Shown here: positions 6,186-63,334 of the stretch, piece after piece
Numbering within the stretch: the stretch's first letter is position 1
Layout of the letters: every line of letters begins with the position of its first letter
From: Rhodospirillaceae bacterium
GTDB lineage: Bacteria; Pseudomonadota; Alphaproteobacteria; GCA-2731375
DNA length: 64,000 bases
Direction of reading: 5' to 3'
Assembly: GCA_018660265.1 (NCBI GenBank)
Contig: JABJKS010000110.1
Location: 1 to 64,000, forward strand
Position numbers and translations under genes: made by a program
Notes under the pieces: model-generated
Seen by the model: only the letters and a program-made list of their open reading frames with translations
What the model was told of the DNA's origin: nothing
Database searches by the model: none

Positions 6186-6191
6186 CGGGTT

Positions 6192-7862: not shown

Positions 7863-7930
7863 TGCTGGTACCTATGCCTGTAAAAATTCACACAGTTGGC
7901 AGATTAGCAACTCAACGCGACGATTGGTAC

Positions 7931-7946: not shown

Positions 7947-8006
7947 CAACGGATAAATTAGCTGAAATTCGTCTTATTTTGTCATTTGAACGGAAAGGTT
8001 AGCGGC

Positions 8007-9050: not shown

Positions 9051-9063
9051 GAGCGCATCTGTC

Positions 9064-9462: not shown

Positions 9463-9463
9463 T

Positions 9464-28259: not shown

Positions 28260-28263
28260 AATC

Positions 28264-28545: not shown

Positions 28546-28611
28546 CGCACTTCCCACCTCTCGCCACAGGATATAACGTACCCCTAGCACTCATACCAGC
28601 ACCGGAATAGC

Positions 28612-41861: not shown

Positions 41862-43061
41862 GTGAAGACAGAACAACCCAACTATTACCCGTCCAATCAT
41901 CCGCCCGACGATTTTGCGGAGGCGGATCGGGCGGCTGGGTTTGAGGTCGGCGCGGATTTTGAGCGGTTTGATCAGCGCAACGATATGTTCTCCCGCGCCT
42001 TTTGGGATGACGGGGTCCAATCCAAGGAGGCCTTGGCATTTTTTCGCTCGCACGCTGATCGGCCCGCATCCCGGCAAGCGGACGGCTTCACGCAAAAAGA
42101 TTATGCCCTGCGCAATGCGGCCTGGGCCGTGGCGGATGACTATGCCGATCGAAACAAGGCGAACGGCCTGCGCGAAGGTTTTCAGGATCCGCAGGAGCCG
42201 CGCTATCCCCCGGCGGAACAAAAGCTAAAAATCGATGACCCTGCCGCCATGACGCTGGAGATCAAACGTGTGGCGCATTTTTTCGGGGCCCATATGGCAG
42301 GCGTGACCGCTCTTGATCCCCGCTGGCTTTATGCCACACGTACGGAAGTCCGCAGCTTCGAGCCGAAACCCAACGATTTGCCCGATGGGCTGACCAACGT
42401 CATCGTGATGGGTCATGGCATGGACTATGATTTGGTCAATGCCTACCCCTCCGCCCTGGCCGGGGCCGCTGTGGGCATGGGCTATTCCGGTGAGGCCACA
42501 ACAGTGGCGCAGCTGTCCCAGTATATCCGGAACCTGGGCTATCAGGCAGTCGGGTCCATGAACGATACTGCCCTGGTCATTCCCATGGCGATCCAGGCGG
42601 GGTTGGGGGAATACGGCCGCAACCAGATGGTCATTACCAAGGATTACGGCCCCCGCGTCAGGTTTTCCAAAATCTTCACGGACATGCCCCTGGCGCATGA
42701 TCAACCGAAACCGTTCGGCGTTACCGAATTCTGCAATGTCTGCCGCCGGTGCGCCGATGCCTGCCCGCCAAAAGCTTTGCCCTTTGGCCCGCCGGAGGTC
42801 GGTAGAGCCAATCGTTCCGCCATCAAGGGGGTCAAAAAATGGACCGCCGACTGCGAAAAATGCTTCGGCTTTTGGGTCAAGATGAAAAGCGATTGCGCCA
42901 TCTGCATGCGGGTCTGCCCCTTCAACAAAGATTTCAGAAAACCCATCATGCGCCTGGCCCGTCGCCTGGCCGGCACCCGTTTGCGCCGCCTGATGCTGTG
43001 GCTGGATATCAAGCTTGGCTATGGCAAGCGTATCGCACCCAACAAATGGTGGAACCCATGA
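41862..43061 (+). CDS. Reductive-dehalogenase-like cobalamin/4Fe-4S protein
   Basis: A 399-residue protein with the RdhA/QueG-type plan: a nitroreductase-like, cobalamin-binding core (IVMGHGMDYDLVNAYPSALA, GYQAVGSMNDTALVIPMAIQ, GLGEYGRNQMVITKDYG) and a C-terminal ferredoxin part. The first cluster is CNVCRRCADACP; the second is formed by the Cys of CEKC and CAICMRVCP. It has no TAT signal or membrane anchor, so it is cytoplasmic and not a respiratory dehalogenase. It may dehalogenate or reduce an aromatic compound. The start is GTG. Its stop overlaps the kynureninase ATG (ATGA). Confidence 0.82.
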   Translation: MKTEQPNYYPSNHPPDDFAEADRAAGFEVGADFERFDQRNDMFSRAFWDDGVQSKEALAFFRSHADRPASRQADGFTQKDYALRNAAWAVADDYADRNKANGLREGFQDPQEPRYPPAEQKLKIDDPAAMTLEIKRVAHFFGAHMAGVTALDPRWLYATRTEVRSFEPKPNDLPDGLTNVIVMGHGMDYDLVNAYPSALAGAAVGMGYSGEATTVAQLSQYIRNLGYQAVGSMNDTALVIPMAIQAGLGEYGRNQMVITKDYGPRVRFSKIFTDMPLAHDQPKPFGVTEFCNVCRRCADACPPKALPFGPPEVGRANRSAIKGVKKWTADCEKCFGFWVKMKSDCAICMRVCPFNKDFRKPIMRLARRLAGTRLRRLMLWLDIKLGYGKRIAPNKWWNP

Positions 43062-44302
43062 TCAGCCGTGAAGATATGGTGGCATTGGACGCCGCTGATG
43101 CTTTGGCACCCTTAAGAGACAAGTTCGAATTGCCCGACGACATGATTTACCTGGACGGCAATTCCCTGGGCCCTGTGCCCAAGGGTGTCAGTGAACGCGT
43201 AAAAGACGTCGTTGAGGTGCAATGGGGCAACGACCTGATCAAATCCTGGAACGTGCATGATTGGATGGGCCTGCCGCAACGGGTAGGTGATCGTATCGCG
43301 CCCTTGATTGGTGCGGATCAGGGCGAGGTCATGGCCTGCGATACCACCTCGATCAATCTGTTCAAATTGCTGGCGGCGGCGTTGGAGCTGCGCCCGGATC
43401 GTAATGTGATCATTGGCCAGGCGGACAATTTCCCCACCGATAATTATCTCGCGGAAGGTTTGATCCGTTTAACCGGGGGTCGTCACGAACTGCGCCTGAT
43501 TGAAGGGGATGATATTATTGGTGCTATTGATGCCGCAGAAGACAGTGTAGCCCTGGTCTTCCTCACCCAGGTCGACTATCGCACCGGTTATGCTCAGGAT
43601 ATGGCGGCGGTAACCAAAGCGGCCCATGACGCAGGTGCCTTGATATTGTGGGATCTGTGCCATTCTGCGGGTGCCCTCAATGTCAGCTTGAACGCGGCAG
43701 GGGCGGATTTTGCCGCCGGGTGCAGTTATAAATATCTCAACGGCGGTCCAGGTGCCCCGGCCTTTTTATTTGTTGCAAAACATCTTCAGGACCAGGTGCA
43801 ACAACCCCTATCAGGATGGCACGGACACGCCGCACCATTTGAATTTGAACGCAGCTATCGGCCTGCGCCAGGCATTGTGCGGCAACTCTGCGGTACGCCA
43901 TCGGTATTGGCGATGAGCGCACTGGATGCGGCCCTGGATGTTTTTGACGGCATTGATATGTCTGTGCTGCGGGCAAAATCCCAGGTGCTGACCAGCCTGT
44001 TCATTGATCTGATGGAAAAACGTTGCGGCGGCCATGGCTTTACCCTGGCCACGACACGGGATCAAACACGCCGGGGCAGCCAGGTCTCGTGGCACCACGA
44101 AATGGGCTACCCCATCATGCAGGCCTTGATTGCAGATGGTGTGGTGGGTGATTTCCGCAGTCCGGATATTCTGCGCTTTGGTTTTGCGCCCTTGTATCTG
44201 CGCTATGTGGATGTCTGGGATGCGGTTACGGTGATAGAGCGGGTGATGCTGGAACAGCGTTGGGATAAACCTGAATTTCACCTTCGCGCCGCCGTTACTT
44301 AA
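43058..44302 (+). CDS. kynU: Kynureninase
   Basis: A 414-residue PLP enzyme that cleaves kynurenine to anthranilate and alanine. [15 protein letters not shown] at the N-terminus, [27 protein letters not shown] and [16 protein letters not shown] (PLP lysine in YKY) are family signatures. The open frame extends upstream into the preceding gene, but the ATG at 43058 gives the normal start and overlaps its stop by 4 bases; ATG at 43046 is a minor alternative. The stop codon lies in the first of three 9-base tandem repeats. Confidence 0.95.
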
Positions 44303-44320
44303 GTTACTTAAGCTACTTAA
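44294..44320 (+). repeat. Three tandem copies of a 9-base unit at the kynU stop
   Basis: GTTACTTAA occurs at 44294-44302 and 44303-44311 and as GCTACTTAA at 44312-44320. The first copy supplies the last two sense codons and the TAA of kynU. Slippage would change only the spacer before the next gene. Confidence 0.85.
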
Positions 44321-44346
44321 GCGTTCAGCCACTGAAAGCGATAACC

Positions 44347-45165
44347 ATGAGCACATCCGGCGCCCATACCGATTTCAAAGACGCCATGAGCTATGGCGAC
44401 TATTTGCATCTGGATGATCTGCTGGGCGCACAACAACCCCGGTCCGGCCAACATGACGAGATGCTGTGCATCATCATCCATCAGGCATCCGAGTTGTGGA
44501 TGAAGCTGGTGCTGCACGAACTCCGCGCCGCCGTGACGCAAATACAGCGGGACGATCTGCGCCCGGCCTTCAAGATGTTGGCCAGGGTATCGGGCATTCA
44601 GCATCAGTTGATCCAGTCCTGGGATGTGCTGTCGACTTTGACGCCTGCGGATTACATGACCTTTCGCGATGCTTTGGGGCAGTCATCGGGTTTTCAGTCC
44701 CAGCAATATCGGGGCATCGAATTTATGCTGGGCAATAAGAACCCGGAGATGCTGCGTCCCTTCGCCCATCGCGCTGATCTCCACGATCCCTTGCAGGCCA
44801 TATTGAACGCCCCCAGCCTTTATGATGAGACCCTGGCCCTGCTCGCCAAACGCGGTCTAGCCGTCCCCAAAGACCGGTTGAACCGGGACTGGCAACAGGC
44901 CTACGATGCTTCGGACGGCGTCCGGGCGGTCTGGCAGACGGTCTATGGCGATACCGCGCGCTATTGGGATTTGTATGAGCTGGCGGAAAAGCTTGTGGAT
45001 CTGGAAGATCGCTTTCAGCAATGGCGTTTTCGCCATCTCACTACCGTGGCCCGGGTCATCGGTGCCAAGCGGGGTACGGGCGGGACCGCGGGCGTCGACT
45101 ATCTGCAAAAGGTGTTGGAAATACGCCTTTTTCCCGAACTATGGCAGGTGCGAACTACGCTATAA
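44347..45165 (+). CDS. kynA: Tryptophan 2,3-dioxygenase
   Basis: A 272-residue heme dioxygenase that opens the indole ring of tryptophan to N-formylkynurenine. [55 protein letters not shown] and the C-terminal [19 protein letters not shown] (His as heme ligand) match bacterial TDO at its usual length. It follows kynU by 44 bases. A formamidase gene (kynB) to link the two steps is not seen. Confidence 0.96.
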
Positions 45166-45210
45166 TAATAGCAACCGAAGAATTTAGGATATTTGCGAGG
45201 AGATCTACAA

Positions 45211-45951
45211 ATGACCGAATTGGTCCTACGAAACGACGCTGACGGTGTTGCCATCCTGACCCTGAACCGGCCCGAGGCGTTGAATTCCTTGAGCCCCAAT
45301 CTATTCATCGAACTGCGCGCCCACGTGGAAAGCATAGCAGTGGATACTGAAAATATCGGCTGCGTCATCCTGCGTGGGGCGGGGCGTTCTTTCTGCGCCG
45401 GCAATGACCTGAAATCGATCCAGGAGGGGCAGGTCGCCCCCACGCCAAGCTATCAAAAAGATACGGTGAATATGATCGAAAACCTGCCCCAGCCGGTGAT
45501 CTGCGAAGTCCGCGGCCACTGCTATACGGGCGGGTTGGAGTTGGCCTTGTCCTGCGATCTGCTGATTGCCTCCGAAACGGCAAAATTCTCTGACACGCAT
45601 GGCAAATGGGGTATGACCCCTGGTTGGGGGATGAGCCAGCGTCTACCCCGCCGCGTCGGGACCCTGAAGGCCAAGGAAATGAGCTATACCGCACGCGCCT
45701 ACACTGGCGCGGAAGCCGCCGCCATGGGTCTGGCCAACCAATGTGTCGCCGACAGCGATTTGGAAGCCGTCGTCCGTGCCATGGCCGCAGATATCGTCGG
45801 GACATCGTGGCATTCCCTGCGCGGCAATAAAATGCTGTACAACGAGGGTCAGGATTACACTTTCCACGATGGCCTGAATTTCGAGTCTGAGAAAAGCCCA
45901 GGTCGTGGCCCCGACAGCGAGGAACGTATCGCCGCGTTCGCCAAGAGTTAG
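45211..45951 (+). CDS. Enoyl-CoA hydratase/isomerase family protein
   Basis: A 246-residue crotonase-fold protein. ILRGAGRSFCAGNDLKSI and HCYTGGLELALSCDLLIA form the oxyanion hole. Where hydratases carry the first catalytic Glu (PE motif), this one reads SDTHGKWGMTPGWG, while a Glu follows in AKEMSYTAR; it may be an isomerase, hydrolase or decarboxylase type rather than a hydratase. A TTG at 45193 is in frame, but the ATG at 45211 has GAGGAG 9 bases upstream. It opens the tight run of genes to 56528. Confidence 0.85.
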   Translation: MTELVLRNDADGVAILTLNRPEALNSLSPNLFIELRAHVESIAVDTENIGCVILRGAGRSFCAGNDLKSIQEGQVAPTPSYQKDTVNMIENLPQPVICEVRGHCYTGGLELALSCDLLIASETAKFSDTHGKWGMTPGWGMSQRLPRRVGTLKAKEMSYTARAYTGAEAAAMGLANQCVADSDLEAVVRAMAADIVGTSWHSLRGNKMLYNEGQDYTFHDGLNFESEKSPGRGPDSEERIAAFAKS

Positions 45952-45955
45952 CGCC

Positions 45956-47368
45956 ATGGCACAACCAATCTGGCAATGGAGTGCCGTCGACACAGCGGCA
46001 GCGATCCGTACCGGCAAAATCACTGCGCAGGAAGCAGTCGATGCCGCCCTCAGCCGCATGGCCGAGACCAATGATGCCGTCAACGCTGTCACCGTAGACT
46101 TGGGCGTGGATGCCCAACAAGCCGCACGTCAGGCCGATGATATCGTGAAAAGCGGCGTCGCTCTGGGCTCCCTGCATGGAGTGCCGGTCACCATAAAAGA
46201 GAACGTGGATCAGGCGGGACAGGCAACAACGAATGGCGTGCCTGCATTCGCTGACGTGCTGGCGGAAACGGACTCCCCTGTTGTGGCAAATATGCGCAAG
46301 GCCGGTGCCATTATCATCGGGCGTACCAATACGCCTGAATTCAGCCTGCGTTGGTTCACGGATAATCCCTTGCGAGGTTTGACGAAAAACCCCTGGCGGG
46401 ACGATATTACCCCTGGTGGATCGTCAGGCGGTGCGGCCTCCGCCGTTGCCTTGGGTATTGGCGCCATCGCCCATGGCAATGACCTGGGAGGATCGTTGCG
46501 ATATCCCGCCTATGCCTGCGGCCTGGCAACAATCAGGCCATCGTTCGGCCGGGTGCCTTCGTTCAATCCCACCGCGCCTGAAGAACGCCCGCCCAGTCTG
46601 CAACTGATGTCAGTACAGGGGCCCATCGCGCGGGAAGTGCGTGACGTCCGCCTGGCCCTGGGCGCTATGGCACAATCCGATGCCCGGGACCCCTGGTGGG
46701 TGCCCGCCCCCCTTGAAGGGCCGGCGCTGACATCGCCAATCAAGGTTGCGGTTTGCAAAACACCTGCCGGCATTGCCTGTCACAGCGCTGTTGAACAGGC
46801 AATCGATCAGGCTGCGGGGCATCTATCAAACGCCGGTTATGCGGTTGAGATGGTTGATCCGCCCTTGGTGGCTGAAATCGCGGAAAGCTGGCGCACGTTG
46901 TTGTTTACGGACACAAAAATCATGTCCGAAGATGCCATGCGAAAATATGGCGGCAGTGATATTAATCAGGTTCTCGACGACTATATGGCAGCATCCAATA
47001 TCCGCGACGTGGACGGTTATATACACGCCCTGGCGGACCGGACCCGGTTGCTGCGGGCGTGGAGCCTGTTCATGGAAGATTACCCCCTGGTTTTGGCTCC
47101 TGTCAGCCAGGTGCCTGCATTTCCGCAGTTGGAGGACCTGAAGGGCGCGGAGCGGGTAAGGCAAATGCTGGATGAACAAAGCATGCTCTATGCCGTCAAT
47201 CTACTTGGCCTGCCCGCCGCCGCTGTTCCCACCGGTCTATACGACGGCATCCCCATGGGTGTGCAGATTATTGGGCCTCGCCTGCGAGAGGATCTTTGCC
47301 TGGATGCGGCAGAGTCGGTTGAACGCGGCACCGGCATTCTGACGCAACAATTATGGAGTAAAACATGA
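45956..47368 (+). CDS. Amidase (amidase-signature family)
   Basis: A 470-residue amidase-signature enzyme. The Ser-cisSer-Lys triad is visible as VTIKENVDQAGQ (Lys), PGGSSGGAASAVALG (cis-Ser) and GNDLGGSLRYPAYACG (nucleophile Ser). It hydrolyses an amide to acid plus ammonia/amine; the substrate is unknown. The start is 4 bases after the preceding stop, and its stop overlaps the next ATG, so translation is probably coupled. A second amidase occurs at 52388-53794 in the same run, with low overall resemblance. Confidence 0.9.
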   Translation: MAQPIWQWSAVDTAAAIRTGKITAQEAVDAALSRMAETNDAVNAVTVDLGVDAQQAARQADDIVKSGVALGSLHGVPVTIKENVDQAGQATTNGVPAFADVLAETDSPVVANMRKAGAIIIGRTNTPEFSLRWFTDNPLRGLTKNPWRDDITPGGSSGGAASAVALGIGAIAHGNDLGGSLRYPAYACGLATIRPSFGRVPSFNPTAPEERPPSLQLMSVQGPIAREVRDVRLALGAMAQSDARDPWWVPAPLEGPALTSPIKVAVCKTPAGIACHSAVEQAIDQAAGHLSNAGYAVEMVDPPLVAEIAESWRTLLFTDTKIMSEDAMRKYGGSDINQVLDDYMAASNIRDVDGYIHALADRTRLLRAWSLFMEDYPLVLAPVSQVPAFPQLEDLKGAERVRQMLDEQSMLYAVNLLGLPAAAVPTGLYDGIPMGVQIIGPRLREDLCLDAAESVERGTGILTQQLWSKT

Positions 47369-47874
47369 GTACCGAATGGCCCGAAGAGATCTATGGCCTG
47401 TTGCGCGAGGCGGACATTGATCAATTCGCCTATGTCCCCGATGCCGGGCATGACCATCTGATCAAACGTTCTATCGCGGATCCGGATGTTCATTCAATTG
47501 CCCTGACCACGGAAGAAGAAGGCGTCGGCCTGCTGGCCGGTGCCCACCTGGGCGGCGGCCGGGGTGTGTTGTTGATGCAAAGCAGCGGCGTGGGCAATTG
47601 CATCAATTTGTTGTCCCTGACCAGGGCCGGGCGATTTCCGTTTCTCACCATCATCTCCATGCGCGGTGATTTTGGCGAGGGTAATCCCTGGCAGATCCCC
47701 ATGGGGCAATCGACCCAGCCGGTGCTGGAAGCTTGCGATGTCACCTGTCTGAAAATCGAAGACGCCGGCGATGTCGCCGCCACCATGACCGCCGCCATCA
47801 CCATGGCCTTTAACAACGAAATGCCGGTTGCTGTCCTGTTGGGGCAAAAACTTCTCGGCGCGAAGAAATTTTAG
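47365..47874 (+). CDS. TPP-dependent decarboxylase, alpha (ComD-like) subunit
   Basis: A 169-residue protein like the alpha subunit of sulfopyruvate decarboxylase (the PYR domain of ThDP enzymes): FAYVPDAGHDHLIKRSI, ALTTEEEGVGLLAGAHLGG with the activating Glu, and LLMQSSGVGNCINLLSL. It is expected to form a complex with the next gene product. Related pairs decarboxylate sulfopyruvate or phosphonopyruvate; here the neighbours suggest another 2-oxo acid. ATGA overlap with the amidase stop; GGAG 6 bases upstream. Confidence 0.85.
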   Translation: MSTEWPEEIYGLLREADIDQFAYVPDAGHDHLIKRSIADPDVHSIALTTEEEGVGLLAGAHLGGGRGVLLMQSSGVGNCINLLSLTRAGRFPFLTIISMRGDFGEGNPWQIPMGQSTQPVLEACDVTCLKIEDAGDVAATMTAAITMAFNNEMPVAVLLGQKLLGAKKF

Positions 47875-47883
47875 GAGGCGGCG

Positions 47884-48510
47884 ATGACAGATGCAAAACC
47901 AGGTGGCCGTGCGGCGGGGAAAACCGCGACCGGCCATATTGATCGCCGCGCCTGCGTCAAGGCGTTGTTGGATAGCCAGGGCGATGACGTCCTGATTATC
48001 GCCGGACTGGCAGGTGCCAAGGGAGATGTTATTGCCGCCGTGGGCGATGCCCCACGGGTCTTTGCCTTTGGCGGTGCCATGGGGGCAGCGGCGTCCATGG
48101 GCCTTGGCCTGGCCCTGGCGCAACCGGACAAGCGCGTCCTGGTGATCACCGGTGACGGTGAATTGTTAATGAACGTCGGCACCCTGGCCACGATCGCCAT
48201 TGCCAATCCTGCTAACCTGGGCGTTGTCTGCGTCGACAATGAACATTACGGCGAAACCGGCTTTCAACGCAGCCATACGGGCCTGGGCACGGATCTGGCC
48301 GCAATGGCTCAGGGGGCCGGGATCGGGGCCGTGCGAACGGTGCGTGAGATGGCGGAGTTGGACGAGGCAGGCGATATGCTGCGGCAATCCAATGGTGCTG
48401 CTTTTGTCCTGCTTAAGGTCGCCGTTGATGATCCGCCCAAGGTTAGAATCCATTGGGATGCGGCCTATCATAAGAACCGTTTTCGCCAAGCCCTTTTAGG
48501 ACAACCATGA
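47884..48510 (+). CDS. TPP-dependent decarboxylase, beta (ComE-like) subunit
   Basis: A 208-residue ThDP-binding (PP) domain protein. ITGDGELLMNVGTLATIA then NPANLGVVCVDNEHYGETG is the ThDP/Mg2+ motif (GDG...N), and FAFGGAMGAAASMGLGLALA is the preceding loop. With the ComD-like subunit it rebuilds a two-chain ThDP decarboxylase. AGGAGG lies 5 bases before the ATG. Its stop overlaps the HyuA start by 4 bases. Confidence 0.87.
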   Translation: MTDAKPGGRAAGKTATGHIDRRACVKALLDSQGDDVLIIAGLAGAKGDVIAAVGDAPRVFAFGGAMGAAASMGLGLALAQPDKRVLVITGDGELLMNVGTLATIAIANPANLGVVCVDNEHYGETGFQRSHTGLGTDLAAMAQGAGIGAVRTVREMAELDEAGDMLRQSNGAAFVLLKVAVDDPPKVRIHWDAAYHKNRFRQALLGQP

Positions 48511-50588
48511 GCCGCTATGCCCTGGGTATCGATATCGGCGGTACGTTCACGGATGTCGTTTTATATGACCGGGAACAAGGCAGACGCCTGACCCGAAAAG
48601 CCCTGACCACCCCCGGTGACCCGGCAGAGGCCGTCCTGGATGCCGTGGATCAAGTGCTGCGCGATGAGGCGATACCTTCGGGGGAGGTTGAGCGGGTGGT
48701 GCATGCCACCACATTGTTCACCAACGCCCTGATCGAACATAAGGGCGCCCGCACGGCCTTGCTGACCACGGACGGTTTTCGCGACAGTCTGGAAATTGGC
48801 CGGGAACGTAAATACGACCTCTATGATCTGGCCGCGAAAAAACCCCGGCCACTGGTGGCCCGTGATTTGCGCTTTGAAGCACAGGAACGCATTCTTGCCG
48901 ACGGTCGTATTCTTACACCCCTAAATTCCGATGCTCTTGCCGATATAGCGGCGGCGTTGCAGGCAGCCGATGTAACGTCCCTGGCGATTGTCTTCCTGCA
49001 CTCTTATCGCAACGACACTCACGAACGGGCCGCTGGTGCGCGGATTGAGGAATTGCTGCCCGATCTGGCGATCAGCCTGTCCAGCGATGTCGCGCCGGAA
49101 ATTCGGGAGTTTGAGCGGGCTTCGACGACGGTCGCCAACGCCTATATCAAACCCCTGGCACGGGACTATCTGGATGCCTTGAGCGCCCGCCTCGGCCAGC
49201 GTGAAATTACCGCGCCCCTGCTTTTGATGCTGTCCAGCGGTGGTTTGACCCACGTGGGCGAGGTTCATCGCTCGCCCGTTCAAATGCTGGAATCCGGCCC
49301 TGCGGCAGGTGCCCTTGCCGCCGCCGATATTGGCCGGGCCGAAGGTCTGGATCATGTCCTGGCCTTTGATATGGGCGGCACCACCGCCAAACTCTGTTTG
49401 ATCGATGGGGAGGAACCGGCCATTGCCTATCGTTTTGAGGCAGCGCGGGAACGCCGTTTCGCCGAAGGCAGCGGCCTGCCCATTCGCATCTCCACCGTTG
49501 AATTGATCGAGATCGGAGCGGGCGGCGGCTCCATCGCGCGTCTGGACGCCCTGGGTTTGTTAAAAGCCGGGCCGGACAGTGCAGGTGCCGTGCCTGGCCC
49601 TGTTGCCTATGGCCGGGGTGGCACCGAACCGACGATCACGGATGCGGATTTCGCCCTTGGTTTCCTCTCCCCCATCGGCTTCGCAGGTGGGGCAATCGAT
49701 GTTGATATTCCGGCCAGCCAGGCCGCCCTGGATGACCTGGCCCAGCAAGCGGGCTTATCAAGTGAAAAACTGGCCTGGGGTATTCATGATCTGGTGAACG
49801 AGAATATGGCCTCCGCCGCCCGGGTGCATGTCGCCGAAAAGGGCCGCGATCCACGCAATTATACCCTTGTCCCCACGGGTGGTGCCGGGCCGGTTCACGC
49901 CTACTATCTGGCCCGAAAGCTAGGCATCAAGCGTATCGTCTGTCCCCGTAACGCGGGCGTGGCCTCGGCCCTGGGTCTGTTATTGGCACCGGCGCGGGTG
50001 GACCGAACGGCAGCCTTTGCCGCCGCGATAGATGATTTGGATTGGGCTGAGTTGGAAACAACCTATCAGGATCTGGAGAGTGCCGCCCGCCAAGTGATCG
50101 TCGATACGGGCATGGACAGCGCCACGGCGCGGGTCCAACGTCTGGCGGATATGCGCAATGTGGGCCAGGGTTTTGAATTGGTGGTCAACCTGCCCACAGG
50201 CCCCTATTCAGGGGATAGCCATGACGGTTTGCTGGCGGCTTATGCTCAGGCCTATCAGGCGCGCTTTACCCGGCCGCCGCCAAATGTACCCGTAACCCTT
50301 GCCGCCATTCGGGTTCGCCTGACGGCACCCGTAGATACGTCGATGGACAATTTCGACCAGGACGGCGCATCGGCCCTGAAGGGGCAACGTGAGGTTTATT
50401 TTCCGGAAACGGACGGGGTGGCGGATGCGGCAATCTATAACAGGGCGGCTATGAAGATCGGCGACGTTCACACGGGCCCGGCGGTCGTGGAAGAAGCGGA
50501 ATCTACCATGGTCATTGGTCCTGGCGGGAAATTTCATATCTCAGCCAACGGCAATCTGATTATTGATTTACCAAAGGACACAGCATGA
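48507..50588 (+). CDS. HyuA: N-methylhydantoinase / 5-oxoprolinase subunit A
   Basis: A 693-residue ASKHA-fold ATPase subunit of the hydantoinase/oxoprolinase family. It starts with GIDIGGTFTDVVLYDRE (phosphate-binding), then VVHATTLFTNALIEHKGA, MLSSGGLTHVGEVHRSPVQM, VLAFDMGGTTAKLCLI (second ATP motif), EIGAGGGSIARLDALG and PTGGAGPVHAYYLARKLGI. Such proteins open cyclic amides (hydantoins, oxoproline) with ATP, together with HyuB. ATGA overlaps join it to ComE-like and HyuB genes. Confidence 0.93.
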   Translation: MSRYALGIDIGGTFTDVVLYDREQGRRLTRKALTTPGDPAEAVLDAVDQVLRDEAIPSGEVERVVHATTLFTNALIEHKGARTALLTTDGFRDSLEIGRERKYDLYDLAAKKPRPLVARDLRFEAQERILADGRILTPLNSDALADIAAALQAADVTSLAIVFLHSYRNDTHERAAGARIEELLPDLAISLSSDVAPEIREFERASTTVANAYIKPLARDYLDALSARLGQREITAPLLLMLSSGGLTHVGEVHRSPVQMLESGPAAGALAAADIGRAEGLDHVLAFDMGGTTAKLCLIDGEEPAIAYRFEAARERRFAEGSGLPIRISTVELIEIGAGGGSIARLDALGLLKAGPDSAGAVPGPVAYGRGGTEPTITDADFALGFLSPIGFAGGAIDVDIPASQAALDDLAQQAGLSSEKLAWGIHDLVNENMASAARVHVAEKGRDPRNYTLVPTGGAGPVHAYYLARKLGIKRIVCPRNAGVASALGLLLAPARVDRTAAFAAAIDDLDWAELETTYQDLESAARQVIVDTGMDSATARVQRLADMRNVGQGFELVVNLPTGPYSGDSHDGLLAAYAQAYQARFTRPPPNVPVTLAAIRVRLTAPVDTSMDNFDQDGASALKGQREVYFPETDGVADAAIYNRAAMKIGDVHTGPAVVEEAESTMVIGPGGKFHISANGNLIIDLPKDTA

Positions 50589-52201
50589 GCACTTTCGATG
50601 CGGTCACGTTGGAAGTGATCTGGAACCGCATGATCGCCTCTGTCGATGAGGCGGCTAAAGCCATTGTCCGAACCTCGTTCTCGACCCTGTCGAATGAGGC
50701 CAATGATTTTGCCTGTGTCTTAACGGATGCCGAGGGCCAATTGTTGGCGCAGAACAGCGGATCCATTCCGTCGTTCATCGGCACGCTGCCCGCCACCGTG
50801 CGCCACACTCTGGAACGCTTCGGGCCCGATGGTCTTGTACCTGGCGATGTGATCTGCACCAACGATCCCTGGCTGGGCACGGGCCATTTGAACGATGTCA
50901 GCGTTGTTCGGCCGATCTTTCGCGGCGATAACCTGATCGCCTTTGCTGCGACCGCCTCACACATGCCGGATATCGGCGGGCGTATCCGATCCGTTGAAGC
51001 GCGGGAAATATTCGAGGAAGGGTTTCATATCCCGCTGTTGAAGATCTTTCGAGCCGGGGAGCCGGATCAGACATTTTTTGAGTTATTGCGCACCCAGGTC
51101 CGTACGCCTGATCAAACAGAGGGCGATATCCACGCCCAAATCACCGCCAACTACCTGATCGAAGATCGTGTTCTGGCCATGGTGGCAGAATACGGCCTTG
51201 ATGATCTGGTGGAGCTGTCACGGGAATTAAATGGCCGTACGGAGACCGCCATGCGGGCGGCTATCTCGGCGGTCCCGGATGGTGTCTATGATTATCAAAT
51301 GCTGACCGATGGCCTGGCAGCCGACGCACCTTTCACCTTTGCCCTGCGTCTAACGGTGAACGGCGATCAGGTCCATTTTGATTTTGCGGGCACCTCACCC
51401 GTTCAGCCGCGGGCCATCAACTGCCCGTTCTGTTACACCTATGCCATGTCCGCCTATGCCATCAAATGCGCCCTGTTGCCGGATGTCCCGAACAATTCCG
51501 GTATGTTGCGACCAATCACTGTGACGGCGCCAGAGAATACCTTGCTTAACCCCCTACCCCCGGCATCGGTGGGGGCACGCGCCAGTACCGGACATTACGT
51601 GCCCATCCTGGCCTTCGGCGCATTGGCTGAGGTGTTGCCGGATCGTGTTATGGCTGCTGCGGGCTCCCCCTTATGGAATTGCACCCAATCCGGCGTGCGC
51701 CCCAACGGCCAGTCCTATGCCTCCAACCTGTTTTTCAACGGCGGTATGGGGGCGACCCATAACGCCGACGGCGAAAGCGCCATATCCTGGCCCTCGAACC
51801 TGTCCTGCACCCCGGTGGAGGTAGCCGAACAGGCAGCGCCCTTGCTGTTTCATTACAAGCGACTGCGTCCCAACTCGGGCGGCAAAGGCCAATATCGTGG
51901 CGGCCTGGGAGAGGATATGTTGATCGAAAGCCTCTCTGAAAGCGACATCGCCGTCACTTTTATGGCGGAGCGCACGCGGCATCCTGCACCCGGCCTGGCG
52001 GGCGGCGGTGATGGACAAGTTGGCGCGGTGGAGATTAATGGGGTTGAGGCCGACAACAGGGCCCAACATCATTTGCAAAAAGGTGATCGTATATTGATCG
52101 CCACGCCGGGCGGCGGCGGCTATGGTTCAGCCAAGGACCGGGATAAGGATAAGATCTTGACGGATCATCATAATGGCTATCTTAGGGAGGATGAGGCGTG
52201 A
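50585..52201 (+). CDS. HyuB: N-methylhydantoinase / 5-oxoprolinase subunit B
   Basis: A 538-residue HyuB subunit. It opens FDAVTLEVIWNRMIASVDEA, then NDPWLGTGHLNDVSVVRPIF, FAATASHMPDIGGRIRSVEA, and the C-terminal YRGGLGEDMLIES and ATPGGGGYGSAKDRD, all typical. It forms the ATP-driven ring-opening enzyme with HyuA; the true substrate is not defined by sequence. The start overlaps the HyuA stop and its own stop overlaps the next GTG start. Confidence 0.93.
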   Translation: MSTFDAVTLEVIWNRMIASVDEAAKAIVRTSFSTLSNEANDFACVLTDAEGQLLAQNSGSIPSFIGTLPATVRHTLERFGPDGLVPGDVICTNDPWLGTGHLNDVSVVRPIFRGDNLIAFAATASHMPDIGGRIRSVEAREIFEEGFHIPLLKIFRAGEPDQTFFELLRTQVRTPDQTEGDIHAQITANYLIEDRVLAMVAEYGLDDLVELSRELNGRTETAMRAAISAVPDGVYDYQMLTDGLAADAPFTFALRLTVNGDQVHFDFAGTSPVQPRAINCPFCYTYAMSAYAIKCALLPDVPNNSGMLRPITVTAPENTLLNPLPPASVGARASTGHYVPILAFGALAEVLPDRVMAAAGSPLWNCTQSGVRPNGQSYASNLFFNGGMGATHNADGESAISWPSNLSCTPVEVAEQAAPLLFHYKRLRPNSGGKGQYRGGLGEDMLIESLSESDIAVTFMAERTRHPAPGLAGGGDGQVGAVEINGVEADNRAQHHLQKGDRILIATPGGGGYGSAKDRDKDKILTDHHNGYLREDEA

Positions 52202-52395
52202 GCAGTGAAATTTTGGACGATAATGCCCTGAAACAGCTTGCCGGATCGGTGGGTCTGGCGAAGCTCTACAGCGAAAACCCTGACCTGGTTCGCAAGTCCT
52301 ATGACGGTGCCCGCGCCATGGCCGAACGGCTGCAACGGCCCGATGACGTCGCCGAAGAACCAGCCCACATATTCCAGGCTAACAACAATGTCTGA
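52198..52395 (+). CDS. Small AtzG/GatC-like protein preceding an amidase
   Basis: A 65-residue protein of mostly helical pattern: DDNALKQLAGSVGLAKLY, SENPDLVRKSYDGARAMAER, ending EEPAHIFQANNNV. The length, the helix-rich body and the EEPAxxF-type tail recall DUF4089/AtzG proteins, GatC-like partners that stabilise an amidase in cyanuric acid breakdown. Family assignment is by eye and moderate. The GTG start overlaps the HyuB stop (GTGA), with GGAGG about 8 bases upstream. Its end overlaps the amidase start by 8 bases, as expected for a subunit of that amidase. Confidence 0.65.
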   Translation: MSSEILDDNALKQLAGSVGLAKLYSENPDLVRKSYDGARAMAERLQRPDDVAEEPAHIFQANNNV

Positions 52396-53794
52396 TAAAA
52401 GAGATGACATAGCTTTCCTCTCCATGACCGAGGCTGCGGCATTGATCCGCACCGGCGACCTATCGCCTGTGACTTATGTGCAAAGCATGCTTGATCGTAT
52501 CAGCAGCTACGATGGCCAGTTGGATAGTTTTCTGCGGGTTTTAGGCGAAAGCGCCTTGGAAGAGGCTGCATTGGCCGAACAGGCAGTTAAGGCCGGCGCG
52601 CAATTGGGGCCGCTTCATGGTATCCCGTTTGGTCTCAAGGACATTGTTGATGCGGCAGGGTTGCCAACAACGGCCCATTCGCAAATCCTGGCCCAGGAAC
52701 CGCCAAAGGCAGCCGACGCCAGGGTGGCCAAGCATCTGCGCCGCGCGGGCGGCATTTTCCTGGGCAAGACGGCAACCCATGAATTCGCCCTGGGCGGGCC
52801 GTCCTTTGATCTGCCCTGGCCACCTGCCCGAAATCCCTGGAACCGTGGCCGCTATCCCGGCGGCTCCTCCTCAGGCTCCGGCGCTGCGGTCGCTGCGGGC
52901 TTTGTTCCCATGGCTATTGGTACGGATACGGGCGGGTCCGTCCGCAATCCGGCGACGTCCTGCGGCATTGTCGGCATGAAGGCGACCTATGGCCGGGTCA
53001 GCCGCCAGGGCGTGGTGCCGCTGTCATTTTCGTTGGATCATGTGGGGCCGATGACCCGTACCGTGGCCGACAACGCCTTGATGTTGAACGCTATAGCCGG
53101 GCATGACCGAGCTGATCCCGGATCGGCGGATGTGCCCGTAACGGACTATACCGCGCAGCTGGACCGTGGCATTAAAGGACTGCGCCTTGGCGTTATCCGC
53201 CACTTCCACGAACGGGACCTGATTGCGGAGCCCGCCATGGCGAAGGCCTTGGATGATGCCCTGCTGGTGTTGGAGGGTCTGGGTGCTGTGGTGTCAGAGG
53301 TGGAGACCGCACCGTTGGTGGATTTTGCCACCACCAACCGTGTCATACTGTTGTCGGAAGCCTACGCCATTCATCGTAAATGGCTTTCCGAACGTCCCGA
53401 GGACTATAGTGCCTCGTTCCTGGAACGGGTTTTGCCGGGCGCGTTTTTGACCTCAGGTGACTACGTGGATGCCATGCGCCAACGCCGCAAATTGACGACC
53501 GGTTTCAATCGGACAATTCAGGATCTGGATGCGGTCATCTGCGTCTCGTCCATGGATGCGCCCTTTATTATTGATGATCCTGACGACATGGCTTTGAAAT
53601 ATCCGCGCCAGGCTCGTGCGCCGTTCAATTTGACCGGCAATCCGGCCCTGGCCATGCCCAATGGTTTTAATGACGATGGCCTGCCCTTATCGATGCAGAT
53701 CGTCGCCAAGAATTTCGATGAGGCGATGATCTATCGCGTCGCCGCCGCCTATGAGGGGGCCACGGATTGGCACAACCGCCGCCCGCCCCTGTAG
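52388..53794 (+). CDS. Amidase (AtzE/GatA-like)
   Basis: A 468-residue amidase-signature enzyme. PFGLKDIVDAAGLPTTAHS (Lys), YPGGSSSGSGAAVAAGF (cis-Ser) and GTDTGGSVRNPATSCGIVG (nucleophile) complete the triad; KATYGRVSRQGVVPLSFSLD resembles GatA/AtzE. The frame is open further upstream (to 52238), but the ATG at 52388 overlaps the small AtzG-like gene end and gives the family start. It probably works on the ring-opened product of HyuAB. The two genes together mimic the AtzG-AtzE pair. Confidence 0.9.
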   Translation: MSDKRDDIAFLSMTEAAALIRTGDLSPVTYVQSMLDRISSYDGQLDSFLRVLGESALEEAALAEQAVKAGAQLGPLHGIPFGLKDIVDAAGLPTTAHSQILAQEPPKAADARVAKHLRRAGGIFLGKTATHEFALGGPSFDLPWPPARNPWNRGRYPGGSSSGSGAAVAAGFVPMAIGTDTGGSVRNPATSCGIVGMKATYGRVSRQGVVPLSFSLDHVGPMTRTVADNALMLNAIAGHDRADPGSADVPVTDYTAQLDRGIKGLRLGVIRHFHERDLIAEPAMAKALDDALLVLEGLGAVVSEVETAPLVDFATTNRVILLSEAYAIHRKWLSERPEDYSASFLERVLPGAFLTSGDYVDAMRQRRKLTTGFNRTIQDLDAVICVSSMDAPFIIDDPDDMALKYPRQARAPFNLTGNPALAMPNGFNDDGLPLSMQIVAKNFDEAMIYRVAAAYEGATDWHNRRPPL

Positions 53795-53821
53795 TCCTAT
53801 AAAAACCCCGGAGGAAACGAA

Positions 53822-54712
53822 ATGCTATCGACCCATGGACGTTACGAATTTTCCCCAATTACCCAACGGCCGGATTATTCCTGGCCGGATGGTAAGCGCC
53901 TGGCGGTCTATATCGCTGTAAACGTGGAACAGTTCGGCTGGGACAAAAGTATAGAATCCGCCATTGCCCCATCCGGCATGAACAACAAACAAAGCGTCTA
54001 TTCCTGGCGTGATTACGGCAACCGGGTTGGTTTCTGGCGCATGATGGACATGTTCGATGACCTGGATATACCCATTCAGGCCCAATTGAACACCTCCATC
54101 TATGATCATGCACCACAGATCCCGCAACGCCTGCGCGAACGGGGCGATGAGTTTCTGGGCCACGGTATCACGAATTCTGAGGAACAGGGCGGCCGACCGG
54201 AGGCTGAGGAACGCGCCCTGATCCAGGAATGCACCGATGCCATCGTTAAAAATGAAGGCAAGGCACCGACCGGGTGGATGGGCCCATGGCTGTCACAAAG
54301 CCCCCAGACTTTGGATCTGCTTGATGAAATGGGCTACACCTACAATATGGATTGGTGTTGTGACGATCAGCCGATCTGGATGAAAACCCGGAACGGACGC
54401 ATCCTGGGCATGCCCTATCCGGTAGAGTTGAATGATAACCGGGCCATTGTTTTGCACAAAATGACCCCCAGCCAATGGGCCGATTGCATCATTGATAATT
54501 TCGAGGAGATGTTGGAGCAATCCGTTGGCCAGCCCCTCGTATTTCCCATCTCGCTGCATACCTTCGTTGTGGGCCAACCATTTCGCATGCGCCATTTGCG
54601 TCGTGCGCTGAAACACATCGTCGATCAGCGCGACAAAATCTGGCTGACCCGCCCCGGCGACATTTGCCGCCATATCGAAAGCCTGCCCGAAGGCATCGTA
54701 CCCGGCAGTTAA
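53822..54712 (+). CDS. Polysaccharide-deacetylase-fold hydrolase, PuuE (allantoinase)-like
   Basis: A 296-residue NodB-fold protein of the PuuE-like branch. RYEFSPITQRPDYSWPDGKR and VYIAVNVEQFGWDK replace the usual TFDD metal motif of chitin deacetylases; QAQLNTSIYDHAPQIPQ, EFLGHGITNSEEQGG and FPISLHTFVVGQPFRM are the conserved core. PuuE enzymes open allantoin without a metal; this supports action on a ureide or amide, but other substrates are possible. GGAGG 6 bases before the ATG fixes the start. It lies 27 bases after the amidase. Confidence 0.85.
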   Translation: MLSTHGRYEFSPITQRPDYSWPDGKRLAVYIAVNVEQFGWDKSIESAIAPSGMNNKQSVYSWRDYGNRVGFWRMMDMFDDLDIPIQAQLNTSIYDHAPQIPQRLRERGDEFLGHGITNSEEQGGRPEAEERALIQECTDAIVKNEGKAPTGWMGPWLSQSPQTLDLLDEMGYTYNMDWCCDDQPIWMKTRNGRILGMPYPVELNDNRAIVLHKMTPSQWADCIIDNFEEMLEQSVGQPLVFPISLHTFVVGQPFRMRHLRRALKHIVDQRDKIWLTRPGDICRHIESLPEGIVPGS

Positions 54713-54730
54713 TTTGAGAAGCGCGAGCAC

Positions 54731-55912
54731 ATGACGGACATAAAACGGGGCCGGGAGTTTCTACATACGCCCGGCCCAACCAATATCCCCGACCGCATCC
54801 TCAATGCCATGCATCAACCGGCTGTGGATTTCACCGCCCCGCCGTTTGTTGCCATGACACGAAGCTGTTTTGAGGACATCAAGCCCATCTTCCAAACCGA
54901 GGGTCCCGTCTTCATGTATGCCGCCAACGGCCATGGTGCCTGGGAAGCGGCGTTAAGCAATACCATGTCGCCAGGCGATCATATCCTAGTGCCGGAGACG
55001 GGAAATTTTTCCCTAAAATGGGGCATGATGGCAGAGTCGCTGGGTCTGGTGATCGAGCATCTGCCGGGCGATTGGCGTCACGCCGTCGACCCAGAGGCGG
55101 TGGAACAACATTTACGCGATGACGATGAGGGGCGGATCAAGGCGGTCCTGATGATCCATGTAGATACGGCAACCGGCATCGTCTCTGACGTACCCGCTGT
55201 GCGCAAAGCCATGAACAACGCCGGTCATAATGCCTTGTTCATGGTGGATACCATCGCATCGTTGGCCACCATGGATTTTCAGATGGATAACTGGGGTGTT
55301 GATGTGGCGCTGGCCGCCTCACAAAAAGGTTTGATGTGCCCACCCGGCCTGGGCTTTACCGCCTGCAGTGAAAAAGCCATGCATGCCTCCCAAAGCGCAC
55401 AGTTACCCCGGAATTACTGGGATTGGCAGGACCGCATGACAGAGGCGCAATATATCCGCTTTTGTGGCACGGCACCGATCCATCTGCTTTATGGCCTACG
55501 GGAAGCCTTGGACATGCTGGCGGAGGAAGGCCTGGTCGCCACCGTCGCGCGGCATCAGCGTTTATCCTCGGCCATACGGGCTGCGGTGGCTACCTGGTGT
55601 TCGGGCGGTGACATGGCCTTCAATGCAGTTCTGCCCGAACAACGTTCCAACTCCATCACCGCCATTCGCGTACCAACCGGTTTCAACGCCGAGGATGTTC
55701 GAACAATGGCGCGGGAGCGCTTTCAGGTCAGCCTTGGTGGCGGCCTGGATCGGCTTAGCGGTATTGTCTTTCGCATTGGCCATATGGGTGATCTGAACGA
55801 ACCCATGATCCTAGGGGCCCTGGGCGGGGTGGAGGCGACGTTGCAAACTCTCGGTGTGCCCCATGGCCGGGGCGGTGTCAGCGCTGCCATCGATTATCTG
55901 GTGGAACATTAG
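54731..55912 (+). CDS. Class V aminotransferase (alanine/serine-glyoxylate or PucG-like)
   Basis: A 393-residue PLP fold-type I enzyme. FLHTPGPTNIPDRILNAMH at the start, YAANGHGAWEAALSNTMSPG, VDTIASLATMDFQMDNWGVD and AASQKGLMCPPGLGF (PLP lysine) match the AGXT/serine-glyoxylate group, which includes ureidoglycine-glyoxylate aminotransferase PucG. Following a PuuE-like gene it may transfer an amino group from the pathway product to glyoxylate or pyruvate. Confidence 0.88.
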   Translation: MTDIKRGREFLHTPGPTNIPDRILNAMHQPAVDFTAPPFVAMTRSCFEDIKPIFQTEGPVFMYAANGHGAWEAALSNTMSPGDHILVPETGNFSLKWGMMAESLGLVIEHLPGDWRHAVDPEAVEQHLRDDDEGRIKAVLMIHVDTATGIVSDVPAVRKAMNNAGHNALFMVDTIASLATMDFQMDNWGVDVALAASQKGLMCPPGLGFTACSEKAMHASQSAQLPRNYWDWQDRMTEAQYIRFCGTAPIHLLYGLREALDMLAEEGLVATVARHQRLSSAIRAAVATWCSGGDMAFNAVLPEQRSNSITAIRVPTGFNAEDVRTMARERFQVSLGGGLDRLSGIVFRIGHMGDLNEPMILGALGGVEATLQTLGVPHGRGGVSAAIDYLVEH

Positions 55913-55916
55913 AGCC

Positions 55917-56528
55917 ATGCCCCGATCCAGTGACGCAGAGGACTGGCGCGTTTATTACCAACGCACCGGGGATCGACCACCACGGGAAACCCTGCTCGAT
56001 GCCCTGGCACGATTTGATGCGGAGGATGCGGTCGGCCAGGCGGTCGATCTGGGCTGTGGCGGGGGCCGCGATACGGTTGAGATGCTGCGCCGGGGCTGGT
56101 CAGTCCTGGGCATCGATGGTCAGGCATCGGCTATTGAAACCTTGTTGGCGCGACCCGAATTATCGAATTTCCAACATCAGCCGGACACCATGGTTTCCAG
56201 GTTTGAGCTGGCCCAATGGCCCGCGGCCGATCTGGTCAATTCTTCCTTCGCCCTGCCGCTGTGTCCCAGAGAGGATTTTCTGGTCATGTGGCAGCGCATC
56301 TATGACAGCCTGAGCCAGGGCGGTCGCTTCAGCGGGCAGCTATATGGTGACCGGGATCAATGGGTGGGCGATGACAGCAACACTCATTTTACCCTGGGGG
56401 AGGTCCAGGATCTGTTGCGCGACTACGAGGTGGAGTTGTTTCGCGAGGAGGAGACGGAATCCGTAACACCGCGCGGGACCTCAAAACATTGGCATATCTA
56501 TCATATCGTGGCCCGCAAACCTGCCTAA
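55917..56528 (+). CDS. Class I SAM-dependent methyltransferase (TehB-like)
   Basis: A 203-residue methyltransferase. VDLGCGGGRDTVEMLRRGWS is motif I and GIDGQASAIETL motif II; ADLVNSSFALPLCPREDF and FSGQLYGDRDQWVGDD follow. The TehB-like fold methylates small molecules or oxyanions. An upstream frame exists to 55854, but the ATG at 55917 gives a clean N-terminus, 4 bases after the aminotransferase stop. It ends the plus-strand run and overlaps the convergent MFS gene by 4 bases. Confidence 0.82.
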   Translation: MPRSSDAEDWRVYYQRTGDRPPRETLLDALARFDAEDAVGQAVDLGCGGGRDTVEMLRRGWSVLGIDGQASAIETLLARPELSNFQHQPDTMVSRFELAQWPAADLVNSSFALPLCPREDFLVMWQRIYDSLSQGGRFSGQLYGDRDQWVGDDSNTHFTLGEVQDLLRDYEVELFREEETESVTPRGTSKHWHIYHIVARKPA

Positions 56529-57748
56529 GACATTTCCCGTCGCCATTCGCTCGGGGACGGCAGGAGCAGAATTATCGCCAGGGCCAGAAACGCGGCGGAG
56601 GCAGACGCTGCGATGGGAAGCTCATATGCGCCGGTCAGATCGAAGGCAAAACCGGCAGCAACAGGCCCGATCAAAGTTCCCATGGCTATACTGGAATATT
56701 GCACGCCGAGAATCCCACCGACATTCCGCGTTCCGAAATAATCGGCTGCTAAGGCAGGTGCCAGGGCGACATAACCGCCATAGAATAAGCCAAACAGAAC
56801 GGCGTATACAACCAAAGCCCAGTAAGCGGTGGAGCTGTACCACCAGACCTGGACCATGGCGATGCCAAGAAACATCGCGATCATCGCGCGGTGCCGTCCG
56901 AACCGGTCGGCCAGTCCGCCCAACGTCAGACGGCCTGACATAGAGCCAACCCCGATAAGAGAGATTAATAGGATCGACAGGCTGTCGGCATGACCGTGAT
57001 CTTGCGAAAACTTGGCCAAATGTACGAAAGGCACAAAAAGACCAAGTGAAATGATCGCGGATGCGCTGAACAGCAACCAAAATGGTTTGGAACGTAGGGC
57101 AGCCTGCATTGACATCCCGGACAATGATGCGCTTTCGCCACCCGAATGCGCATCGCCGTCCGGGTAAAGACCGCGCGCGGCAGGATTGGGCACAAGCATC
57201 CAGGCTGCGATTAAGCCAATGACCAAGGTTACTGCGGCGAGGACCTGAAACGTTTGCCGCCAGCCAAGTGTCTCAACAAGGAAATTGCTGATCGGTGGTG
57301 CTATCAAGGTGCCGACGCCAATGCCGGCAACAGCCAAGCCCGTGGCAAATCCGCGCCGGCGGACAAACCAACGTTGTAGCACGCCGACGGAGGGGACATA
57401 GGCAAAGCCGATCCCGATCCCCACAGCAGCACCATAGGTGAGATAAACCTGCCACAGGCTTTGCGCGAAGCTGGCCGCCAACAAGCCAATGGCGATCAGG
57501 ACTATGCCAAAGGCGACAACGGGGCGGGAGCCGAGACGATCACTGAGCGGCCCCGATATGGCACCGAGGGAAAAATAGAGAAAACCGGCAATAGAGAAGA
57601 CCAGGGATACATCGCCCCTGGAGGCCGTAAAGTCCTGTTCCATTCCGCCAAAAAAGGAGGCGAATGAATAGGCTATACCAAAGCCCAGGAACAAAATCGT
57701 GAACGCCGCACCAACCACGAACCAGCCGTAAAAGACCCTCTGGCCCAT
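56525..57748 (-). CDS. MFS transporter, oxalate/formate- or monocarboxylate-type
   Basis: A 407-residue, twelve-span major facilitator. It contains ISGPLSDRLGSRPVVAFG (motif A region), IGIGFAYVPSVGVLQRWFVR then RRGFATGLAVAGIGVGTL and, in the second half, LGGLADRFGRHRAMIAMFLG. This pattern is common in OFA/monocarboxylate carriers. It converges on the catabolic run and could import the substrate or export a product, but the cargo is unknown. Confidence 0.87.
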   Translation of the reverse strand: MGQRVFYGWFVVGAAFTILFLGFGIAYSFASFFGGMEQDFTASRGDVSLVFSIAGFLYFSLGAISGPLSDRLGSRPVVAFGIVLIAIGLLAASFAQSLWQVYLTYGAAVGIGIGFAYVPSVGVLQRWFVRRRGFATGLAVAGIGVGTLIAPPISNFLVETLGWRQTFQVLAAVTLVIGLIAAWMLVPNPAARGLYPDGDAHSGGESASLSGMSMQAALRSKPFWLLFSASAIISLGLFVPFVHLAKFSQDHGHADSLSILLISLIGVGSMSGRLTLGGLADRFGRHRAMIAMFLGIAMVQVWWYSSTAYWALVVYAVLFGLFYGGYVALAPALAADYFGTRNVGGILGVQYSSIAMGTLIGPVAAGFAFDLTGAYELPIAASASAAFLALAIILLLPSPSEWRREMS

Positions 57749-62470: not shown

Positions 62471-63334
62471 CTAGGAAAGTTTACCGCGCATGGTTTCGGC
62501 GAAATGGGCAATCTTATCCAGACGGGGCAAGACATCGTCCGCTGGGGCGGCCTTGACGCCAAAGATACAACGGTTCACCCCATTTTTAGCCAAGGTTGCA
62601 ATAGCTGCGGGGTCTCGTGGTGTCCCGAAAGTGGTGATGGGATAGGGATCGCGCCCGGCGTCCTTGGCCAATGCTGCCAATTCGGCCATACGTGCCGCCT
62701 TTAGGTCCATGCCTTGGCCATCCGCCTCCAACAAAGGCATCCAGCCATCACCATAGCGTTGCACCCGGCCAAAGGTCCCCGGCGCATCACCGCCGATGAA
62801 AATAGGTGGGTATGGCTTTTGCACCGGTTTTGGCCATGATTGTATGCGATCGAAATTCACGAATTCGCCATTGTAGCTGGCTTCATCCTGGGTCCAGATC
62901 GCCTGCATGGCTTCCATACGTTCACGGGCGACTTTCCAGCGGCGATCCCAGGGCGCGCCGTGGTTTTCCATTTCCTCACGATTCCAGCCCCCGCCAATAC
63001 CGAAATCAACCCGGCCGCCTGAGATATGATCCAGGCTGGCCACATCTTTGGCGGTGACAATGGGGTCGCGCTCCACCACCAGGCAAACCCCGGTTCCCAG
63101 ACGGATGCGCTTGGTCACCGCAGCGGCTGCGGCCAGGGCCAAAAACATGTCCACATTGTGGGAATAGTCAGGCGGCAGGTCACCGCCCAGGATAAACTGG
63201 CTATCGCGACTGGCGGGGATATGGGTATGGTCGGGAATAAACAGAGCGTCCAGCCCGCGTTCTTCCACCGCGACGGCAAGATCCACTGCCTGTATAGAAT
63301 AATCCGTCACGAACATGCAGATGCCAAATTCCAT
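62471..63334 (-). CDS. LLM-class F420-dependent oxidoreductase (TIGR03619-like)
   Basis: A 287-residue LLM barrel protein. MEFGICMFVTDYSIQAVDLA, LFIPDHTHIPASRDSQFILG, ISGGRVDFGIGGGWNREEME, HGAPWDRRWKVARERMEAMQ and PYPPIFIGGDAPGTFGRVQR fit the TIGR03619 group of F420-linked oxidoreductases. It is the fourth LLM gene in the window, 55 kb from the F420 synthesis genes. Substrate unknown. Confidence 0.87.
   Translation of the reverse strand: MEFGICMFVTDYSIQAVDLAVAVEERGLDALFIPDHTHIPASRDSQFILGGDLPPDYSHNVDMFLALAAAAAVTKRIRLGTGVCLVVERDPIVTAKDVASLDHISGGRVDFGIGGGWNREEMENHGAPWDRRWKVARERMEAMQAIWTQDEASYNGEFVNFDRIQSWPKPVQKPYPPIFIGGDAPGTFGRVQRYGDGWMPLLEADGQGMDLKAARMAELAALAKDAGRDPYPITTFGTPRDPAAIATLAKNGVNRCIFGVKAAPADDVLPRLDKIAHFAETMRGKLS

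Follow-up and report, generated by a model that had tools for sequence, protein, structure and literature searches.

The window analysed here is a stretch of 64,000 nucleotides from contig JABJKS010000110.1 of a Rhodospirillaceae bacterium (assembly GCA_018660265.1, 5.55 Mb in 121 contigs). It carries a run of genes coding for two amidases (Ami1 and Ami2), both chains of a thiamine pyrophosphate (TPP) decarboxylase (DcE and DcD, together DcED), the subunits of an ATP-dependent enzyme of the hydantoinase type (HyuA and HyuB) and a 65-residue peptide. A sequence-only reading of this DNA had described them as a coupled operon of seven genes at 45956–53794. All seven open reading frames (ORFs) were found there on the plus strand, and the tight coupling holds, with junctions of –4, +9, –4, –4, –4 and –8 bp. 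These limits are however too narrow, as a crotonase gene (ech) located 4 bp before ami1 and three genes downstream of ami2 (pda, sgat and met at 53822–56528, with gaps of +27, +18 and –2 bp) share the same conserved unit. Comparison with relatives sets the extent of the core at eleven genes, spanning 45211–56528 (Table 1).

The order ech-ami1-dcE-dcD-hyuA-hyuB is retained in 10 out of 10 congeners, the peptide gene and ami2 in all nine congeners whose contigs reach beyond hyuB, and pda-sgat-met in all eight whose contigs reach that far. Since the reading frames are also kept across the 10 congeners, and every gene tested is under purifying selection (ratios of nonsynonymous to synonymous substitution of about 0.04–0.17, together with codon-position identities), the gene run is more than chance. 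The sister genus has kept the first half, including ech upstream of ami1, with an aspartate-aminotransferase-like gene (PRK06107-like) between dcD and hyuA, and in two further genera of the family dcED is present but the remaining genes are not. A dcD homologue is present in each of the 14 other available genomes of the order. The named relatives are metagenome-assembled genomes labelled Rhodospirillaceae or Alphaproteobacteria, and the isolate names (SI072, BS150m, casp150, Arabian10), as we read them, suggest marine and partly oxygen-poor sites.

Table 1 Genes of the core unit, followed by flanking genes (window coordinates)
Gene	Position	Strand	Description
ech	45211–45951	+	Crotonase superfamily, first gene of core; Pfam ECH_1, below all equivalog cut-offs shown
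ami1	45956–47368	+	Amidase-signature hydrolase, PRK07487 subfamily (630.8 bits, cut-off 428)
dcE	47365–47874	+	Alpha (PYR-domain) chain of two-chain TPP decarboxylase
dcD	47884–48510	+	Beta (PP-domain) chain of TPP decarboxylase; Pfam TPP_enzyme_C
hyuA	48507–50588	+	ATP-binding subunit, hydantoinase/oxoprolinase type; Hydantoinase_A domains
hyuB	50585–52201	+	Metal-binding hydrolytic subunit; Hydantoinase_B, 513 bits
65-aa peptide	52198–52395	+	AtzG/GatC-like partner peptide of Ami2; GTG start
ami2	52388–53794	+	GatA/AtzE-type amidase; Pfam and NCBIfam
pda	53822–54712	+	PuuE-like hydrolase with polysaccharide-deacetylase fold; Pfam Polysacc_deac_1
sgat	54731–55912	+	Class V aminotransferase close to L-aspartate:glyoxylate aminotransferase BhcA
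met	55911–56528	+	Small class I methyltransferase, last gene of unit; Methyltransf_25
kynU	43058–44302	+	Kynureninase; TIGR01814, 322 bits (cut-off 246)
tdo	44347–45165	+	Tryptophan 2,3-dioxygenase; TIGR03036, 421 bits (cut-off 390.7)
MFS transporter	56525–57748	–	Converges on operon; Pfam MFS_1; in place in several congeners

The co-directional genes kynU and tdo are variable accessories at the upstream edge: roughly half of the congeners have tdo at this position, and three lack kynU. A reductive-dehalogenase-like 4Fe-4S protein (41862–43061, plus strand; TIGR02486, 173.6 bits, cut-off 160.35) is encoded in the same direction. The convergent MFS gene could possibly code for a transporter serving the operon. 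Rfam searches yielded no riboswitch or other RNA able to name a ligand of the operon, and scans for promoters and terminators gave little beyond chance. Further upstream, a 762-residue protein (37522–39810, plus strand) combines two class III CoA-transferase domains in a single chain. The window also includes a set of genes for F420 on the minus strand of this alphaproteobacterial genome (1330–6881), comprising a CofGH fusion, CofC, CofD, CofE and an F420-NADP-reductase-like gene, with genes for luciferase-like proteins nearby (134–1177, 6909–7862 and 7986–9050) and at 62471–63334. CofGH, CofD and CofE pass curated cut-offs, while the assignments of CofC, of the reductase and of the luciferase-like proteins were made by eye.

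Active sites and family membership

Pfam and NCBIfam bear out the earlier identification of the two amidases, of the C-terminal TPP domain and of HyuA and HyuB; strict membership was judged by the curated cut-offs of NCBIfam. With the motifs of CapA as reference, HyuA has the ATP-site motifs (DIGGT at 9, DMGGT at 288 and GAVPGP at 360) and the Lys region RKALTTPGDP, while Asp41, His101, Asp104 and His126 of HyuB match the metal tetrad of CapB. This fits a predicted ATP-driven hydrolase of a cyclic amide. The resemblance to caprolactamase CapAB and the ATP-dependent hydantoinases (PMC8453981) covers both phosphate motifs, the adenosine motif and the Asp-His-Asp-His set, but the vicinal Cys-Cys of CapB is missing in HyuB, and the scores for CapAB itself (NF050156 and NF050157) are 490.8 and 211.5 bits against a cut-off of 1000. 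The genome encodes 24 HyuA homologues, an extensive repertoire for ATP-dependent ring opening.

Both amidases have kept the Lys-Ser-Ser catalytic residues (Lys81, GGSSGG and Ser180 in Ami1; Lys84, GGSSSG and Ser184 in Ami2). Ami2 scores below the cut-off for the biuret-type hydrolase AtzE (TIGR02715, 276.4 against 425.75 bits). The peptide encoded before it had been called AtzG-like; its position, its size and a C-terminal [DE]EPxHxF motif are common to small ORFs preceding related amidases. The peptide has however no Pfam family and no sequence match in the PDB, and its predicted structure (mean predicted local distance difference test score of 77) gave no significant match in a fold search, with a GatC chain appearing only at an E-value of 8.5. 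As in the AtzG-AtzE 1-carboxybiuret hydrolase (PMC6219798), the small gene directly precedes and overlaps that of a GatA/AtzE-type amidase; unlike in that system, AtzD, AtzH and AtzF are absent here.

DcE is recognised solely by models of TPP decarboxylases (TIGR03845 and TIGR03297), has the conserved catalytic-Glu motif TEEEG and is homologous to the alpha chain of a two-chain phosphonopyruvate decarboxylase in the PDB (9iz3). The TPP motif of DcD (GDG...VDN) is intact. The description of the pair as ComDE-like is hence appropriate at the level of the fold, with separate PYR and PP chains and the TPP motif, but not at that of function, since both chains score below the cut-offs for sulfopyruvate decarboxylase (TIGR03845, 127.9 against 147.95 bits; TIGR03846, 125.1 against 221.5 bits). 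The same goes for phosphonopyruvate decarboxylase (TIGR03297, 65.8 and 103.8 bits against 312.5). The two-chain architecture and TPP motifs are shared with ComDE and with the phosphonopyruvate decarboxylase RhiEF, whereas the gene neighbourhood is a different one.

The remaining enzymes were likewise compared with named relatives. Pda does not reach the cut-off for allantoinase PuuE (TIGR03212, 119.3 against 424.6 bits), nor Sgat that for BhcA (NF045640, 391.4 against 650 bits); the best solved relative of Sgat is 6pk1. In the crotonase, at the positions that are catalytic in enoyl-CoA hydratases, the first Glu is kept (GGLELA) and the second is replaced by His (FSDTHG), so that the enzyme may not be a hydratase.

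Occurrence of the modules in other genomes

Homologues of dcD were found in 84 of the 385 alphaproteobacterial genomes scanned, and a scan of named genomes gave 80 loci. Among the loci from these scans, the full set was not found beyond the genus and its sister genus. The sequence-only reading had proposed looking for the same gene set in other genomes; it does occur together in one genus and in part in the sister genus, but was not seen elsewhere.

Parts of it are nevertheless re-paired in distant bacteria. At three loci (L112, L114 and L116), dcED adjoins a divergent AtzG-like peptide/Ami2-type amidase pair (amidase 55–56% identical), and at a fourth (L227) it adjoins an Ami2-type amidase on the same strand, where no AtzG-like ORF was detected. 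In L112 (6035–9035) and L116 (4885–7878), the group divergent from dcED comprises the Ami2-type amidase, the AtzG-like peptide, a luciferase-like monooxygenase and a DUF1028 protein. A different combination is represented on a plasmid of Variovorax sp. RA8 (NZ_LR594663.1, 270–283 kb), where an uncharacterised cluster of about 12 kb codes for HyuAB (51/54%), an aminotransferase (61% identity to that of the sister genus), a PuuE-like protein (49%), a small ORF and an amidase (45%). Unlike the operon described here, it is without TPP decarboxylase, crotonase or Sgat, and includes LysR regulators and a tripartite tricarboxylate transporter protein. In Cupriavidus, too, HyuAB is accompanied by a similar aminotransferase. 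Genes for a dihydroorotate dehydrogenase, a Zn-dependent hydrolase and a dihydroorotase, probably for orotate catabolism, lie a few kb away from the Variovorax cluster (25659–29781 of locus L209).

PuuE-like relatives are encoded together with hydantoin-racemase-like proteins, N-carbamoyl-amino-acid hydrolase, dihydropyrimidinase or ring-opening amidohydrolase. No shared clue to a substrate emerged from the genes flanking the nearest relatives that HyuAB, Ami2 and Ami1 have beyond the genus, and a phylum-wide search with HyuB at E ≤ 1e-165 returned the genome of origin only. One locus (L192, on contig C99 of genome G067, 1199–10257) has hyuA followed by four tandem copies of hyuB, 53–66% identical to HyuB of the window.

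Proposed pathway and alternatives

The reading that we favour, with confidence about evenly balanced, is that of a genus-specific operon for the breakdown of a compound with a cyclic amide, for instance a substituted hydantoin, a cyclic ureide or imide, a fused pyrimidine or a similar N-heterocycle. It builds on what was observed, namely the genes present, their active-site motifs, the conservation of their linkage and the purifying selection on them, and from this we infer the reactions, their order and the class of substrate. HyuAB would spend ATP to open a ring amide with poor spontaneous opening, and Pda is a candidate for opening a second ring or an alternative form. Ami2 with its AtzG-like peptide, and Ami1, would then strip carbamoyl or amide groups. 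Sgat, or in the sister genus the inserted aspartate-type aminotransferase, would transaminate the amino acid so formed to give a 2-oxo acid, with glyoxylate as a probable acceptor, and DcED would release CO2 from this acid, or from an equivalent alpha-imino carboxylate, leaving an aldehyde (or a decarboxylated heterocycle). The crotonase and the methyltransferase would act at further steps. The sequence of ring opening, amide removal and decarboxylation of a 2-oxo acid had been suggested before; intact motifs, conserved linkage and a published pathway of the same logic speak for it, but the aminotransferase step had been omitted. The pyridoxal-phosphate aminotransferases that were overlooked (Sgat in the operon, the aspartate type in the sister genus and in Betaproteobacteria) probably supply the 2-oxo acid for DcED.

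Several observations weigh against this reading. As the full set is limited to one genus, with half of it in the sister genus, long-range conservation cannot fix the pathway. The reactions of Sgat, Pda and DcED are family-level guesses, because all of them fall below the cut-offs of the named enzymes. In the neighbourhood of 40 Ami2-type loci outside the genus, dcED was found once, HyuA and PuuE-like genes three times each and an Sgat-like gene once, which indicates that Ami2-type enzymes are also general-purpose. Both dcED and Ami2-type amidases occur in many unrelated contexts as well, and HyuAB at about 55–65% identity is usually accompanied by other genes.

It is conceivable, though on balance rather unlikely, that two or three unrelated scavenging modules (amide hydrolysis, lactamase, 2-oxo acid decarboxylase, tryptophan breakdown) are co-transcribed and form no linear pathway. 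That dcED stands alone in many lineages, that the 40 Ami2-type loci share little context, that Ami1 homologues occur alone and that kynU and tdo are variably present upstream would all agree with such an arrangement, which is harder to reconcile with a core order found without loss in every congener sampled and with module pairings that recur in distant bacteria. In addition, outside the family, the closest relatives of HyuB and of Ami2 are largely found in the same genomes although the genes are unlinked there (6 out of 6 Ami2 genomes, 4 out of 4 families). The thresholds of this co-occurrence were picked after seeing the data, and large catabolic genomes may have many such genes in common, so that its p-values serve as an indication only. 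True sulfopyruvate or phosphonopyruvate decarboxylation by DcED, in an operon degrading a sulfonated or phosphonated amide, is the least probable of the alternatives: TIGR03845, TIGR03846 and TIGR03297 are the best NCBIfam models, and an aspartate aminotransferase, as encoded in the sister genus, can act on cysteate, but the scores stay below the cut-offs for both functions, and neither a sulfoacetaldehyde acetyltransferase nor a phosphonate gene is present in the operon. We also regard it as very unlikely that the operon extends tryptophan breakdown, with Tdo and KynU feeding an indole- or kynurenine-derived lactam to HyuAB in the way that IaaCE acts on a lactam derived from indoleacetate. 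Canonical tdo and kynU do lie directly upstream in the same direction, and the IaaCE of Aromatoleum is listed as a relative of HyuAB in the caprolactamase paper (PMC8453981); this route was downgraded because the two genes are not constant, the core being intact where either is missing, and no KynB-type formamidase was seen beside them.

The published pathway of the same logic, and the closest one known, is lumichrome/riboflavin catabolism in Nocardioides simplex, in which LumH catalyses a reversible opening of the pyrimidine ring in carboxylumichrome, with 40% at equilibrium, LumI hydrolyses a urea and LumM an imidamide, and the two-chain LumK/LumL then decarboxylates the product (PMC12746152). 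The operon could by analogy serve a fused pyrimidine (flavin, lumichrome, pterin or deazaflavin), a uracil-like ring being opened, amide and urea groups hydrolysed and a heterocyclic carboxylate decarboxylated by the TPP enzyme. The likeness, which is one of literature description, reaction logic and chain sizes (about 20 and 23 kDa for LumK/LumL), and the presence of biosynthesis genes for the deazaflavin F420 in the window (1330–6185) would agree with this, yet we hold it to be improbable. LumH is a single protein of 80 kDa with a reversible reaction for which ATP is not mentioned, unlike the HyuAB pair, the Lum route is without aminotransferases, and the xanthine-oxidase-like and Rieske enzymes with which it continues have no genes in 41862–57748, nor is there one for a catechol dioxygenase. 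In the pathway that we favour, an ATP-driven opener would lift the equilibrium limit of LumH.

While the enzyme classes are all known, their combination was not found in the open-licence literature searched: neither hydantoinase, sulfopyruvate decarboxylase and amidase together nor hydantoinase and thiamine pyrophosphate led to any paper, and a search on marine hydantoinases added nothing. The earlier remark that the combination was not known from a described pathway holds for the exact set in these papers, but its logic has been published as LumH/LumI/LumM/LumK/LumL. Going further than the catabolic operon that we favour, we put forward tentatively, as possible but doubtful, an undescribed pathway of oxygen-poor and deep marine Alphaproteobacteria, in which HyuAB would drive the unfavourable opening of a heterocycle irreversibly and the product would pass to a two-chain TPP decarboxylase of a further functional class beside ComDE/RhiEF and LumKL, opening up refractory dissolved organic nitrogen. 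Very few reactions are known for two-chain TPP decarboxylases, namely those connected with coenzyme M, with rhizocticin and, since 2025, with lumichrome breakdown (PMC12746152). An operon which ties such an enzyme to ring opening and amidases is a handle on the remaining homologues in alphaproteobacterial genomes, and the number of HyuA homologues in this one genome points to a lineage specialised on the cyclic amides of marine organic nitrogen.

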